DNA from: a virus
Strand: one strand, 5' to 3'
Virus record (IMG/VR): IMGVR_UViG_3300034759_000313
Span: 1 to 32,370 of that record
Length of the DNA stretch: 32,370 nt
In this document: piece by piece, positions 12,005 through 22,145 of the stretch
How positions within the stretch are numbered: position 1 is the stretch's first letter
Layout: every line of letters begins with the position of its first letter
Notes under the pieces: model-generated
Told to the model about the DNA's origin: nothing
The model's database searches: none
The model's input: the letters and a program-made list of their open reading frames with translations, nothing else
Program-made: the position numbers and the translations under genes

Positions 12005-12028
12005 TACGCTTTGAAAGGAAAACGAATT

Positions 12029-12886
12029 ATGAAATGGAAAGAGATCAAAAATTGGGAGCGTGTGGCCGGCTGGTACATTGAGCCGGCCACAGAGACGAAA
12101 TACTGTTACGTTGGCGACGACGTGCAGCTGGGCGACGATGTCTGGCTGGGCGCCGGCGTCTGGCTGGGAAACGACGTGCAACTGGGCGCCCGCGTCCGGC
12201 TGGGCGCCCGCGTCCGGCTGGGCAACGGCGTCCGGCTGGGCGACGACGTGCAACTGGGCGCCGGCGTCTGGCTGGGAAACGACGTGCAACTGGGCGCCAG
12301 CGTCCGGTTGGGCAACTTCGTCCGGCTGGGCGACTCCGTCCGGTTGGGCAACTCCGTCCGGCTGGGCGACGACGTGCAACTGGGCGCCGGCGTCTGGCTG
12401 GGCGACGGCGTCCGGCTGGGCCACGACGTCCGGCTGGGAAACGACGTGCAGCTGGGCGCCAGCGTCCGGCTGGGCGACGGCGTCCGGCTGGGCTCCCGCG
12501 TCTGTCTGGGAAACGACGTGCAGCTGGGCGCCCGCGTCCGGCTGGGAAACGACGTGCAGCTGGGCGCCAGCGTCCGGTTGGGCAACTCCGTCCGGCTGGG
12601 CGACGACGTTCGGCTGGGCGACTTCGTCCGGCTGGGCGACGACGTCCAAGTGCCCGTGTATCAGTCATGGTCGTTTGCCATCCACTGGCACGCTCCGGGG
12701 ACGATTCGAGCGGGTTGTATCATCGGGCCGTTTGACCGGTGCCTCGCCAACGTCCGGCAGGTTGCCGCCGAGCACGGCTATCCGCCGGACGAGCAGGAGC
12801 GATATGCGGGATTTATACGGCAAATTATTGAGTGGGAAAAGTTAATGGGCGATAAGGTCGGTTTCGCCCGACTCGATGCCACATAA
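12029..12886 (+). CDS. Hexapeptide-repeat (left-handed beta-helix) protein
   Basis: 285 aa. I chose the ATG at 12029 because GAAAGGAAAA lies just upstream; a TTG at 12011 would start inside that site. After ~29 N-terminal residues come 30 tandem hexapeptides of pattern x-x-V-x-L-G, enough for ten three-sided coils of a left-handed beta-helix. The C-terminal ~75 residues (FAIHWHAPGTIRAGCIIG, then a helical YPPDEQERYAGFIRQIIEW) resemble a cap seen in phage hexapeptide proteins. Classical members are acyltransferases, but the catalytic His and loops of those enzymes were not seen, and this repeat is unusually uniform. Structural or binding use is more likely than catalysis. The function is unknown. 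Confidence 0.85.
   Translation: MKWKEIKNWERVAGWYIEPATETKYCYVGDDVQLGDDVWLGAGVWLGNDVQLGARVRLGARVRLGNGVRLGDDVQLGAGVWLGNDVQLGASVRLGNFVRLGDSVRLGNSVRLGDDVQLGAGVWLGDGVRLGHDVRLGNDVQLGASVRLGDGVRLGSRVCLGNDVQLGARVRLGNDVQLGASVRLGNSVRLGDDVRLGDFVRLGDDVQVPVYQSWSFAIHWHAPGTIRAGCIIGPFDRCLANVRQVAAEHGYPPDEQERYAGFIRQIIEWEKLMGDKVGFARLDAT
12116..12655 (+). repeat. 30 tandem 18-bp units (coding minisatellite)
   Basis: Thirty consecutive 18-base units encode xxVxLG. Many are near-identical at the DNA level (for example GTCCGGCTGGGC and GACGACGTGCAACTGGGC recur), and higher-order blocks such as DDVQLG-AGVWLG-NDVQLG repeat. This points to recent unequal exchange or slippage. The other five frames are also open here because of the periodicity; those ORFs are shadows. 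Confidence 0.95.
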
Positions 12887-13024: not shown

Positions 13025-13477
13025 ATGAACAACATCATCGTTGTGAGTCGGCACAAAAATGCTATCCGGTTCATCGCTGACCAACTGATGGCAGCGATGA
13101 AACACAACCCCCGTATTATGCGGGGGCACCCCTACCTCACTTATTACGAGGCGGGGGAAGATTACATTGATTTTTTCACGGAGGAGGGTGGCTATATTGT
13201 TGAGTCTGTCCCTCTCTATCGATACGATGTTAACTCTGATATTGTCAAGGGCAAGGTAGTCATCGGCAATCTGCCGTTGTCCTTGGCCGCACAATGCGAC
13301 CGCTATTATGCCGTTGAGCACGACAGCGGACGAGCGGATGATGGCACGGAGCAATTTGTGCTACGGGCTTACGAGATTGAATATGTACCAGCGATTTGCC
13401 CGGATTGTTTTTCGGTTGACATCAAAATGCGCGAAAATGGCATTGAATGCCTCCTATGTGGTGCTTATTACGGTTAA
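13025..13477 (+). CDS. Csx16-like protein with C-terminal zinc ribbon (candidate ring nuclease / anti-CRISPR)
   Basis: 150 aa. The N-terminus MNNIIVVSRHKNAIRFI and the later VKGKVVIGNLPLSLAAQCDR match the two signature regions of the Csx16 (VVA1548) family: a first strand ending in [ST]RH followed by a helix, and G-x-x-V-x-G-x-L-P-x-x-L-A-A. Csx16 proteins accompany type III CRISPR systems and are thought to be ring nucleases that degrade cyclic oligoadenylate; diverged relatives occur in phages. Here an extra ~35 residues (about 26-75) separate the two regions, and the end adds CPDC ... CLLC, a zinc ribbon not usual for the family. The ATG at 13025 follows AAGGAG. A terminator follows the gene, so it may be transcribed alone. 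The fold call is from motif reading; activity is inferred. Confidence 0.85.
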   Translation: MNNIIVVSRHKNAIRFIADQLMAAMKHNPRIMRGHPYLTYYEAGEDYIDFFTEEGGYIVESVPLYRYDVNSDIVKGKVVIGNLPLSLAAQCDRYYAVEHDSGRADDGTEQFVLRAYEIEYVPAICPDCFSVDIKMRENGIECLLCGAYYG

Positions 13478-18501: not shown

Positions 18502-19233
18502 ATGACTGTGATTTATGAACCCAAGGGCAAGGCCAGAGAATACGCGGAGTTGGCTTGCAATCTGTTTACCGGCTGTCGGCATCGCTGCCGATATTGTTAT
18601 TGTCCGGCGATTATGCGTCAGTCTTTAGAGGAGTGGGCGGCAGACCCCGCCCCTCGGAAAGATATCCTTGAGAAACTCGACCGCGAGGCGTCAAGGCTGG
18701 CCGGCTGTGATAAAGAGTTGCTGTTTTCTTTTATGAGCGACCCCTACCAGAGTCAGGCGGCGGCCGATTATACACGTCAGGCCTTATTGATTTGCGAGAC
18801 ATACGAGTTTCACAAGGTCAACGTGCTGACAAAAAATGGCGGGCTTGCCCAGCAGGATTTTGACATCCTTGCCAGACATCCAGGTTGGAAATTTGGCAGC
18901 ACAATTATTTTTGACGCCGAGTCCTTAAGGGAGTATTGGGAGCCCGGCGCATCGAGCATCGAAAGCCGTATTTTGGCCGTCCAGGAGGCCCACAGACGCG
19001 GTATCTACACCTGGATATCCGTAGAGCCGGTAGTGGAGCCAAAGGCGGCCCTGCGGCTTATCAGGCGGCTTAAACAGTTTGTGAATTTTTGGAAAATCGG
19101 GAAATTGAATTACAGACCCGACGTCGAGGCGACGATTAACTGGGCACGATTTCTGGTCGACGTTGAGGACGAGTTGGCCGGCTGTAAATACTACATCAAA
19201 AAAGACCTTATCGCAGCGGCAAGACAGAAATGA
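18502..19233 (+). CDS. Radical SAM protein (spore-photoproduct-lyase-like family)
   Basis: 243 aa. NLFTGCRHRCRYCYCPAI holds the C-x3-C-x2-C cluster motif (about residues 25-32) for the [4Fe-4S] that cleaves S-adenosylmethionine. The start YEPKGKAREYAELACNLFTG is typical of phage and bacterial SPL-like radical SAM proteins. LLFSFMSDPYQ and KVNVLTKNGG fit the barrel strands of that family. The substrate is unknown; nucleic-acid modification or repair is possible. It lies between lysis and replication genes with a ribosome site AAAGGAT. A radical SAM enzyme suggests an anaerobic or low-oxygen host (inference). Confidence 0.88.
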   Translation: MTVIYEPKGKAREYAELACNLFTGCRHRCRYCYCPAIMRQSLEEWAADPAPRKDILEKLDREASRLAGCDKELLFSFMSDPYQSQAAADYTRQALLICETYEFHKVNVLTKNGGLAQQDFDILARHPGWKFGSTIIFDAESLREYWEPGASSIESRILAVQEAHRRGIYTWISVEPVVEPKAALRLIRRLKQFVNFWKIGKLNYRPDVEATINWARFLVDVEDELAGCKYYIKKDLIAAARQK

Positions 19234-19299: not shown

Positions 19300-19328
19300 T
19301 TGACTCGGTTTGTGGTTTTTACTAAGAT
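19300..19328 (+). promoter_or_regulatory. Promoter for the replication leader RNA
   Basis: TTGACT (19300-19305), a 17-base spacer and TAAGAT (19323-19328). Transcription should begin at about 19334-19336, just where the first arm of the structured leader begins (19335). A T-tract lies immediately upstream of the -35. It overlaps the 3' side of the 204-base gap after the radical SAM gene. Confidence 0.6.
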
Positions 19329-19334
19329 TGAATC

Positions 19335-19420
19335 GTGCTCAACGTAAAAGACAATTTGACTTATCTTTACCCCGCCGGAGAACGCCCCCCTGCGTTGAGC
19401 ACACTCCGGCGGGTTTTTTT
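19335..19420 (+). ncRNA. Structured leader RNA / attenuator with terminator hairpin
   Basis: Arm A GTGCTCAACG (19335-19344) pairs perfectly with A' CGTTGAGCAC (19393-19402). Arm B CCCGCCGGAG (19371-19380) pairs perfectly with B' CTCCGGCGGG (19404-19413), followed by T7 (19414-19420). A' lies in the loop of the B stem, so the two helices form a pseudoknot or compete. B-B'-T7 is a good intrinsic terminator. The RNA would end 18 bases before the replication initiator ATG, and could be a premature-termination control or a free ~85-nt RNA. The pairing is seen directly; the switching is inference. Confidence 0.7.
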
Positions 19421-19437
19421 GTTGAAGGAATTAAGCG

Positions 19438-20355
19438 ATGGAAAAATACCTGATAAAACCACAGGCGATTATCCAGGATAAACGGCTGACCTCCACAGAG
19501 TCCGATTATTTGTGTCTGATTTTCCAATTGTGCAATGCCAACGGTTGTACTGCGTCAAATCAGTATTTTGCCGATTATTTCGGCGTCAGCCGTGCACGGG
19601 CGACGCAGGTTATTGCCGAGTTAAGGAGAAAGGGTTTTATTACCACTCAAGAGCAAAAATCAGGCGGCAAAACCATTGAGCGGACAATCACAATCATCGA
19701 CCATAATAGTAAGGAATCCTTATCATCTAATGGTAAGGAATCCGAATTGAAACTATCTAATGGTAAGGAAATCTTACCATCTAATGGTAAGGAGTCCTTA
19801 TCAAACACCGGTTTTATGGCAAGAAAACCTTACCATCCAATGGTAAGAAATCCGAATTTTGATGGTAAGAAAACCTATAACCATACATTAGAAGAGACAA
19901 TAGATAATACTAAAGAAAAGAAAGAAAATAATAAAAAGAAAGAAAAGAAAGAAATTTCTCCCTTTTTTGCCGATGCCGAACCCTCTCAGGACGCGACCAT
20001 ATTGGACGATTGGGATGAGACAGAGGCAACGGAATATGTTTTTGTGTTGCAAGACGGAAGTCAATGGTATTTGCCTGATGAAAAATTCACCGAATACAAT
20101 AGAACATTTGTCGATATTGATGTAGCAGCGGAACTCCGCAAAGCGGCACAGTGGCTGCGGGATAATCCTGGTCGCCGAAAGACAGCACGAGGGATGCCGC
20201 GATTTTTGAGTGGTTGGCTTGGGCGCGTTGAATCGAAAAAACCCGCAAAGGCTTTGCGAGAGTTACCAGAGGCCAATTTCAGGGCCGTCTTCAACAAGTT
20301 AGGTGTACCGCGGGACATCCAGGACAAATTAGAGGCTGAAGGCTGGACAGTATGA
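19438..20355 (+). CDS. Replication initiator protein (lambda O-like organisation)
   Basis: 305 aa. Residues ~20-75 form a winged helix (TSTESDYLCLIFQL, then FADYFGVSRARATQVIAEL, then GFITTQEQ). Residues ~95-150 are encoded by DNA iterons and contain repeated SNGKE strings. A Lys/Glu-rich linker (NTKEKKENNKKKEKKE) follows. The C-terminal ~100 residues (LRKAAQWLRDNPGRRKTA, FLSGWLGRV) resemble the C-terminal part of phage replication proteins. A DNA-binding N-terminus, ori inside the gene, and an adjacent primase-helicase argue for an initiator that melts the origin. The ATG at 19438 follows GAAGGAATTAAGCG. The stop overlaps the next gene (ATGAC). Confidence 0.85.
   Translation: MEKYLIKPQAIIQDKRLTSTESDYLCLIFQLCNANGCTASNQYFADYFGVSRARATQVIAELRRKGFITTQEQKSGGKTIERTITIIDHNSKESLSSNGKESELKLSNGKEILPSNGKESLSNTGFMARKPYHPMVRNPNFDGKKTYNHTLEETIDNTKEKKENNKKKEKKEISPFFADAEPSQDATILDDWDETEATEYVFVLQDGSQWYLPDEKFTEYNRTFVDIDVAAELRKAAQWLRDNPGRRKTARGMPRFLSGWLGRVESKKPAKALRELPEANFRAVFNKLGVPRDIQDKLEAEGWTV
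19704..19965. repeat. Iteron array and AT/purine-rich stretch: candidate replication origin
   Basis: Seven imperfect 16-bp repeats of consensus TAATGGTAAGGAATCC start at 19704, 19728, 19758, 19782, 19814, 19838 and 19860. Copies at 19782 and 19838 are each preceded by an inverted half (CTTACCAT), giving palindromes 19773-19791 and 19829-19847. From about 19872 to 19965 the DNA is AT-rich and nearly all purine on the + strand, as in an unwinding element. The array lies inside the initiator gene, as lambda ori lies in O. Confidence 0.75.
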
Positions 20356-22145
20356 CACCTCACCCAAGGCAGACAACAAAGGCGGAATTGCTCGGGGCGC
20401 TAAAGGCGGCCGGAGCGGTCGTTCAGGGCAACAAAATTAAATGTCCCTTCCACGACGACCACAGCCCCTCGGCAGGGGTGTTTCAGGGCGACGATGGAAT
20501 CTGGCGTTACCGCTGCCACAGTTGCGGGACAAAAGGCGACGTGTATGACATCGAGGCCCGAATGACGGGAAGGCCCCTTGCCGAAATACTCCGAGAAAAT
20601 GCACAGGATGCCACAGAATCGAAAAACGCGGTCAGACCCTACCCATCACGCCCGCAAAGGCCGTTCGCCGATTTAGGGGCAATCTATGGCCTTCTGGAGG
20701 CACAACACGGCGGCCGGCTGGAAGCCCTGCACGAATATACAACCGTGGACGGCCAACACATCCAGTATGTGATTCGCTGGCGAAACGCCGACGGCAAAAA
20801 AACCATAAGACCAGCGGTCAAGACATCAGCGGGGCTCGAACTGCGTTCCCCCGAAAATCGGTTTTTGTATCGTTTACCGGAAACGGACAAGGCAAAAACG
20901 GTCGTTGTCGTCGAGGGCGAGGCCAAAGCCGATATCCTGGCCGAATATGGCTTTACCGCAACCACCAGCGCAGGCGGCAGCAAGGCAGCGGCAAAAACCG
21001 ACTGGCAGCCGCTGGCCGGGAAAAATATCATCCTCTGGCCGGATTATGACACAGCGGGTATGGCCTATGCCGATGATGTCCGGCGAATCCTTGATGGGTT
21101 GGATTGCAAAATTAAGATAATCGACCCTGCAACGCTTGACTTGCCGGAAACCGGAGACGTGGTTGATTATGTGCAGCAGGTCAAAAATGCAGGTCTTGAT
21201 GATTTTGGCGTTAAAGAGGCATTGCTTGACGTTTTCAAAAACAAGGCCCATACAACCGGCCCGTCGGCGGAACTCGATGTTTATTACGAGGCGATTTTCG
21301 ACAAGCGATTTTGCACGGTTAAAACGGGTTTTTCAATCCTCGACGGCTTGATACAGGTGATGCCGGAGAGTTTGACCGTTGTGTGCGGCAGCCCAGGCGC
21401 AAGCAAAAGTCTGATGATGTTGCAGTGGCTGGCATTTCTCCTCGAGCAAGGAACCAAAGCCGCCTGTTTGATGCTGGAACGCAAGCGACCTTTTCATCTT
21501 GCACGGGCCCTCGCACAGCGGGCGGGCATTGCACACCTGACACATATCGATTGGGCGCAGAGCAATCCTGATTTAGTGAGACAGGTCAAAGAGGAACATC
21601 GGGAGTTTATTGACCGGATTGGCAGGTCGATTTGGGTATCGCCCGATAAGCAAATGACACAGGCTGATATTATCAATTGGGCCAAACAGAGGGCAGATAC
21701 CGGTCATCGGCTGATGATAATCGACCCGGCGACGCTGGCGGGGCGCATGGATGAACCTTACAAGGCGGATGAAAAATTTGTGCAGGGGCTGAAGGCGGTT
21801 GCGGATACTACAAAGACGGCCATTGTTGTTGTCTTGCACCCCATCAAAGGGCAATGCATTATGCCCGATTTATCCAGTGTATCTGGTGGGGCTGTCTATC
21901 AGCGGGCGGCCGACTGCGCGCTTTGGCTGGATAACCACGACCCACAAGTGTCGAACGTTTTTATCGCTCACGGGTATTCGGCAACCGAAGAGGTCGAGCA
22001 TAACCGGACGCTGATAATCCTGAAAAGTAGGGATGGGTCGGGGACGAATAGCCGGATTGCCTTTGATTTTTCGGCGGAGGATTTGACACTAAAAGAGATG
22101 GGGCTAATCGTGAAAAAGAAGAAAAAAAAGCGAACTGACGATTGA
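20352..22145 (+). CDS. Bifunctional primase-helicase
   Basis: 597 aa, T7 gp4-like. The zinc-binding domain has CPFHDDHSPS (C31, H34) and CHSCGTKGD (C55, C58). The TOPRIM-like primase core has VVVEGEAKADIL (~185-196) and DYDTAG (231-236). The RecA-like helicase has Walker A GSPGASKS (346-353), LMLERKR, a Walker B-like RLMIIDPATLAG (~454-465) and the later VSGGAVYQRAADC. It lays RNA primers and unwinds the fork. The C-terminus is a run of lysines. It overlaps the initiator stop by 4 bases, so both are one operon. No phage DNA polymerase was found, so the host polymerase is probably recruited. Confidence 0.95.
   Translation: MTPHPRQTTKAELLGALKAAGAVVQGNKIKCPFHDDHSPSAGVFQGDDGIWRYRCHSCGTKGDVYDIEARMTGRPLAEILRENAQDATESKNAVRPYPSRPQRPFADLGAIYGLLEAQHGGRLEALHEYTTVDGQHIQYVIRWRNADGKKTIRPAVKTSAGLELRSPENRFLYRLPETDKAKTVVVVEGEAKADILAEYGFTATTSAGGSKAAAKTDWQPLAGKNIILWPDYDTAGMAYADDVRRILDGLDCKIKIIDPATLDLPETGDVVDYVQQVKNAGLDDFGVKEALLDVFKNKAHTTGPSAELDVYYEAIFDKRFCTVKTGFSILDGLIQVMPESLTVVCGSPGASKSLMMLQWLAFLLEQGTKAACLMLERKRPFHLARALAQRAGIAHLTHIDWAQSNPDLVRQVKEEHREFIDRIGRSIWVSPDKQMTQADIINWAKQRADTGHRLMIIDPATLAGRMDEPYKADEKFVQGLKAVADTTKTAIVVVLHPIKGQCIMPDLSSVSGGAVYQRAADCALWLDNHDPQVSNVFIAHGYSATEEVEHNRTLIILKSRDGSGTNSRIAFDFSAEDLTLKEMGLIVKKKKKKRTDD

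Follow-up and report, generated by a model that had tools for sequence, protein, structure and literature searches.

The leader and its surroundings in the phage genome

The DNA analyzed here, referred to throughout as the window, comprises all 32,370 nucleotides of the IMG/VR virus record IMGVR_UViG_3300034759_000313 (positions 1 to 32,370). It encodes a lambda-type portal, a gpA-type terminase, a head protease, a tape measure protein, RecT, SSB, an O-like replication initiator and a primase/helicase; none of the window proteins scanned was identified as an integrase. Given that the terminase relatives of this phage lie nearly all in Planctomycetota, its host is very probably a member of that group. 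The plus strand at 19300-19437 carries, in this order, a promoter, arms A, B, A' and B', a run of seven T residues (T7) and a Shine-Dalgarno (SD)-like sequence, followed by the ATG of the O-like initiator gene (Table 1). Immediately upstream of this leader, on the same strand, lies a gene for a Radical SAM protein (DUF5131-like; 18502-19233). Within the O-like gene, inverted and direct repeats (ATGGTAAGGAATCC / TTACCAT) at 19704-19858 resemble the iterons of lambda-type origins.

Table 1. Coordinates of the leader elements and of the genes behind them in the window.
Feature	Position	Strand	Basis or remark
Sigma-70-like promoter, TTGACT-17-TAAGAT	19300..19328	+	Consensus scan, 9/12; placement relative to arm A same in relatives
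Arm A, starting at predicted +1	19335..19346	+	Sequence and interlock scan
Candidate leaderless leader ORF, GTG at +1 to TAA, 48 codons	19335..19481	+	Frame open in eight members
Loop L1	19347..19370	+	Near copy in G044 (AAAARACAAYYUGA..CUUAUC); letters not kept in other members
Arm B, 5' side of terminator stem	19371..19380	+	Sequence and interlock scan
Element C (AACGC)	19381..19385	+	Rivals A for GCGTT of A'; nested folding
Arm A'	19391..19402	+	Sequence and interlock scan
Arm B', 3' side of terminator stem	19404..19413	+	Sequence and interlock scan
T7, end of intrinsic terminator	19414..19420	+	Sequence
SD-like GAAGGA of downstream gene	19424..19429	+	Sequence; aligns with GAAGGG of G044
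O-like replication initiator, iteron-like repeats inside	19438..20355	+	PHROGs replication initiation families, best E 4.7e-16
Primase/helicase, next gene of presumed operon	20352..22145	+	PHROGs 239, E 2.2e-43; Pfam DnaB_C and Toprim

An earlier note on this DNA had placed two interlocking helices and a terminator here, with the transcript beginning at arm A. Sequence inspection and scans bore out this layout and extended A:A' from 10 to 12 pairs (10 perfect pairs plus U.G and A-U); B:B' is a perfect helix of 10 bp. The promoter boxes, TTGACT (19300-19305) and TAAGAT (19323-19328), are separated by a 17-nt spacer, and the +1 predicted by the consensus scan, G19335, is indeed the first base of arm A. 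The note's description of the locus as an attenuator or pseudoknot switch was supported, with the correction that A:A' and B:B' interlock and share no bases, unlike the mutually exclusive hairpins of a classic attenuator. The only overlap able to switch is that of element C, absent from the note, which could pair with GCGTT of A' (19392-19396) in competition with A.

Scored as an interlocked A-B-A'-B'-T unit, the real sequence reached 21.5, whereas the best value among 2693 dinucleotide-shuffled windows, with both strands scored, was 21.0. Given the terminator, we roughly estimate at 1e-3 the chance of a perfect 10-nt partner for its loop within the preceding 50 nt. Covariance models of Rfam 15 families (riboswitches, C4 antisense RNA and others) gave no match at gathering score in the window, in keeping with the note's remark that the leader resembles no known riboswitch class; when this search was relaxed to E values of up to 10, only sub-threshold chance matches appeared.

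Interlocked leaders in Planctomycetota

Looking for proteins related to the O-like initiator brought up genome G044, in which a structural scan of the fetched DNA, with no window sequence as input, detected an interlocked terminator of 11 + 11 bp. Homology between the window and G044 leaders runs from the promoter as far as the SD (Smith-Waterman score 78, compared with a best of 48 in 1671 shuffles). Two A pairs are changed on both sides between them, and the outer B pairs, which MAFFT misplaces, are compensated when read by eye. The G044 promoter is near consensus (10/12), and the gene that follows the leader encodes a tyrosine integrase, not a replication protein.

Relatives of the G044 integrase were then fetched, and scanning the stretch ahead of each revealed the layout in six more places: G342 (L451), G310 (L452), G339 twice (L455 and L496), G464 (L457) and G471 (L462). 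This makes eight members, i.e., the window and seven Planctomycetota examples, each of the seven upstream of a tyrosine-integrase gene. The earlier placement of the leader before replication genes therefore stands for the window, the only copy with a replication initiator downstream, and not for the rest; since the other seven precede integrase genes, the element is not tied to replication genes. All eight share a promoter, A at +1, an interlocked B, A' abutting B' and a U-run, with stem letters that are unrelated. An element C-like sequence directly follows B in G044, G310 and G339b as well. In members with a script-scored promoter, A starts at most one base from the predicted +1; the promoter-like sequences of L451 and L457 were judged by eye only. 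A' and B' are separated by 5 nt in G471 and by -1 to 2 nt in the other seven members. The distance from U-run to start codon is 13-24 nt in the six members measured (17 in the window), and the G342 integrase starts 255 nt after the RNA. At that locus, an ATG about 19 nt past the U-run may begin a small gene between leader and integrase.

Perfect-helix scores were 16.5-22.5, compared with none of 1200 shuffles at 17 or more, and L457, with its interrupted A helix, and L496 were detected by energy. Across 4.48 Mb of fetched DNA, an interlock score of at least 15 together with a promoter at A was found in the family and in one other place (L238). Comparisons between members showed that both helices are kept with compensating changes, so that single-helix conservation, which the note had named as a refuting result, did not occur: the outer seven A pairs differ on two sides 131 times and on one side never, and when the arms are taken from different members just 40% of A positions would pair. 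Since members were found via this pairing, the 100% pairing within members is partly selection, from which the shuffles and the promoter position are free.

No conserved unpaired seed or pocket letters were found across the eight members, in which L1 measures 13-38 nt and L2 10-38 nt. Both observations speak against a riboswitch-like switch in which a metabolite or protein binds the pseudoknot. Riboswitches with a pseudoknot next to a terminator are known, and a terminator-pseudoknot has been proposed for the fhsA motif (PMC11109978); even so, we consider this reading very improbable for the present leader.

On a tree of 24 integrases the trait is patchy and needs four changes, which may reflect loss of the leader, a degenerate form that escaped the scan, or several separate gains. 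A tRNA gene lies close to the fetched integrase loci, as is common for integrative elements. This setting would suit a feature acting at the DNA level, in which the inverted repeats are protein-binding or recombination sites and the terminator insulates against outside transcription; terminators at the ends of elements are known to act as insulators, as in Tn916 (PMC11658703). Such a feature is nevertheless highly unlikely here, given that the terminator lies behind a promoter of the same orientation, which it would block, and that the U-run is on one side only. Arm A as an operator was likewise rejected: copies of it within two mismatches occur in the window at chance level.

Searches by sequence yielded no further members. 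Phage and plasmid records held no relatives at the DNA level, and arm and L1 pattern matches in viral contigs were rejected as chance or coding matches. A covariance model (R1) built from the window and G044 found no third member in sampled Planctomycetota genomes and 43 phage records, as would be expected of a sequence-based model if the stems have no fixed letters. A weak R1 match in G026 was an ordinary terminator, and a promising local alignment at L266 was rejected; both lack arm A. Three loci (L509, L503 and L484) were left out of the count because no promoter could be seen at A by eye, despite energy-test values of p < 0.01. In the stretches fetched, the leader was absent from TerL relatives and from the replication-module relatives L124, G079, G292 and the second helicase locus of G044. 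Because stems without fixed letters escape sequence-based searches, the element may be far commoner than eight examples.

Some of these loci have features of their own. The second G044 element, on contigs C70 and C23 (L441 and L440), has the closest helicase found (50% identity over 517 aa), with no interlocked leader ahead of it, and the gene preceding this helicase (L440) contains a repeat set, TACTTTGAC, that differs from the set in the O-like gene of the window. Contig C1 of G079 (L286-L290) holds at least five O-like initiator gene copies and helicase fragments in one genome, and the copies often have repeated stretches in common.

Folding and the leader reading frame

In nested folding, A:A' forms first in all eight members once A' has emerged. 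At full length, B:B' wins in the window, G044, G339a and G464, and A:A' wins in G342, G310, G339b and G471; models of this type cannot contain both helices together. In the window, stacking amounts to about -24 and -26 kcal/mol, which points to the joint A:A' and B:B' pseudoknot as the state of highest stability. An L2 of at least 10 nt can presumably span A:A', and an L3 near 0 would let the helices stack.

In all eight members, a reading frame that begins at the transcript 5' end meets no stop codon in the RNA before B'. The joint shuffle probability of this openness is 8e-6 with frames fixed and 0.016 with any frame allowed, and its strength depends on choosing the frame beforehand; for G464 and G044, this choice followed a GUG one base from the first paired base. 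Taking CGG of B' as a codon, the frame has no stop before B' in seven of the eight, among which the first triplet is GUG in four and UUG in one; in G044, the one exception, it is the frame set by its own GUG that stays open. Overall, the 5'-end start codon is GUG in five of eight and UUG in one, with two members having no start codon at +1. CCGG of B' keeps its phase in 6/7, despite an A-to-B' distance that ranges from 69 to 111 nt. In most members the frame passes through the terminator, and in the window it enters the initiator gene. In G339b and G464 the frame ends on a stop codon that overlaps the integrase start, and in G471 an in-frame AUG is preceded by AAGGA. Most members have no SD for this frame, and no codon enrichment was seen by eye. 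Taken together, the kept frame suggests a leader peptide. In mycobacteria, AUG or GUG at +1 is sufficient for leaderless translation (PMC4633059), and in E. coli GUG is a weak leaderless start (PMC9031893; PMC4633059).

The kept frame is left unexplained if the leader is a stand-alone, trans-acting small RNA, i.e., a stable pseudoknot of about 86 nt with the downstream gene reached by incidental readthrough, as for the short form of IsrK. Both RNA ends are defined and structured, the near-consensus promoter of G044 would suit such an RNA, and Gifsy-1 IsrK provides a precedent (PMC4825925). On the other hand, the RNA always lies directly upstream of a gene start, and the eight members have no unpaired seed letters in common. 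On balance, we regard a trans-acting role as unlikely.

A proposed gate on early mobile-element genes

The interpretation that we favor, and consider rather likely, is that the element is a cis-acting transcription attenuator that gates the first gene of a mobile element. This reading comes from the geometry, as in most members so little space separates the terminator from the start codon that expression of the downstream gene would require readthrough: SD and start follow close behind the U-run, leaving no room for another promoter. The 5'-terminal, pseudoknot-type leader and its intrinsic terminator would then decide whether polymerase from the promoter reaches the first gene, which is the O-like initiator in the window and an integrase elsewhere. 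As the RNA emerges, A:A' would form first; with the emergence of B', B:B' would either form on top of A:A' as a stacked pseudoknot or displace A:A' with help from C:A'. Polymerase would then stop, releasing an RNA of about 86 nt, close to the ~85 nt suggested in the note. The 255-nt distance to the integrase in G342 and the patchy occurrence on the integrase tree count against this reading. Comparison between members supports the structure and its arrangement; termination, translation and the signal are what we infer from these sequences.

Translation may be what opens the gate, although we put this at somewhat less than an even chance. If a ribosome took hold of the 5' end ahead of A' synthesis, B would be prevented from pairing and polymerase could continue; otherwise, A:A' would bury the start codon and the gate would stay closed. 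Gating by translation would account at once for the start of A at +1, the kept frame and the close junction of A' with B'; the two members with no start codon at +1 and the weakness of GUG as a leaderless start in E. coli speak against it. We tentatively propose a new class of regulatory RNA in Planctomycetota mobile elements, in which ribosome capture of a leaderless GUG 5' end before A' gates transcription. The GUG would sit in the first arm of an interlocked terminator, and the stacked A:A'/B:B' helix would be the closed gate that also hides the start codon.

In its effect, the proposed attenuator would resemble several known systems, with membership established in none. A terminator-bearing leader before a replication initiator gene, as in the window, is also present in pIP501 repR and pT181, and in plasmid rep attenuators premature termination sets the initiator level (PMC4981023). 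Their termination, however, is induced by an antisense RNA from the opposite strand, whereas here the helices interlock and most members precede integrases. No convincing promoter was found on the minus strand, where the only candidate is a weak 9/12 promoter-like match at 19534 and the number of such matches is about that expected by chance. The 5' put RNA of HK022 likewise affects termination in early phage transcripts (PMC9378689), but it suppresses downstream termination via RNA polymerase, whereas the present element has a terminator of its own, with which its first arm interlocks. In leader-peptide attenuators of the trp type, too, the gene is preceded by a short frame and a terminator. 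In the present case, by contrast, the frame starts at +1, mostly without an SD, and runs into or through the terminator, and the two helices are not mutually exclusive by shared bases.

Among prophage RNAs, Gifsy-1 IsrK is likewise short, with its own promoter and terminator, and a fraction of its transcripts continue into the genes downstream (PMC4825925). The present element showed no relation to it by sequence or Rfam, and is distinguished by its interlocked helices and its frame at the 5' end. P4 CI RNA and the C4 RNAs hold off prophage replication genes by premature leader termination, yielding a short RNA, and CI halts transcription of the P4 replication genes by base pairing with two complementary stretches of the leader (PMC4825925). 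The present leader could similarly serve immunity or copy control, with terminated leaders pairing A':A in trans with new leaders to enforce termination, since A and C are each complementary to part of A'. Its order, however, is A-C-A', not seqA-seqB-seqC, it has no downstream target copy (no A copy within two mismatches between 19421 and 23900) and it has no Rfam match, so that we judge this role quite improbable.

We found no description of an element of this kind before integrases in the open-access papers searched, and the interlocked leader probably acts as an RNA gate, so far undescribed, on the early genes of mobile elements. To our knowledge, the choice between quiet residence and activity is unstudied in Planctomycetota temperate phages and integrative elements. 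If the proposed gate is real, a compact 5'-terminal RNA on integrases and a replication initiator would offer a testable control point, with helices that change their letters freely while the interlocked layout stays. It would also be a rare natural case of a terminator forming part of a pseudoknot, perhaps tied to leaderless translation.

Two further repeats were observed in the window. Ten letters of A' recur exactly (CGTTGAGCAC) at 13312-13321, within an ORF (13025-13477) whose product weakly matches Cas_VVA1548; with the next two letters, 12 letters there match the upstream flank of the leader, and pairing of this copy with arm A is possible, as is a chance match. Another gene (12011-12886) contains about thirty 18-bp tandem repeats, and its product is a hexapeptide-repeat (left-handed beta-helix) protein.
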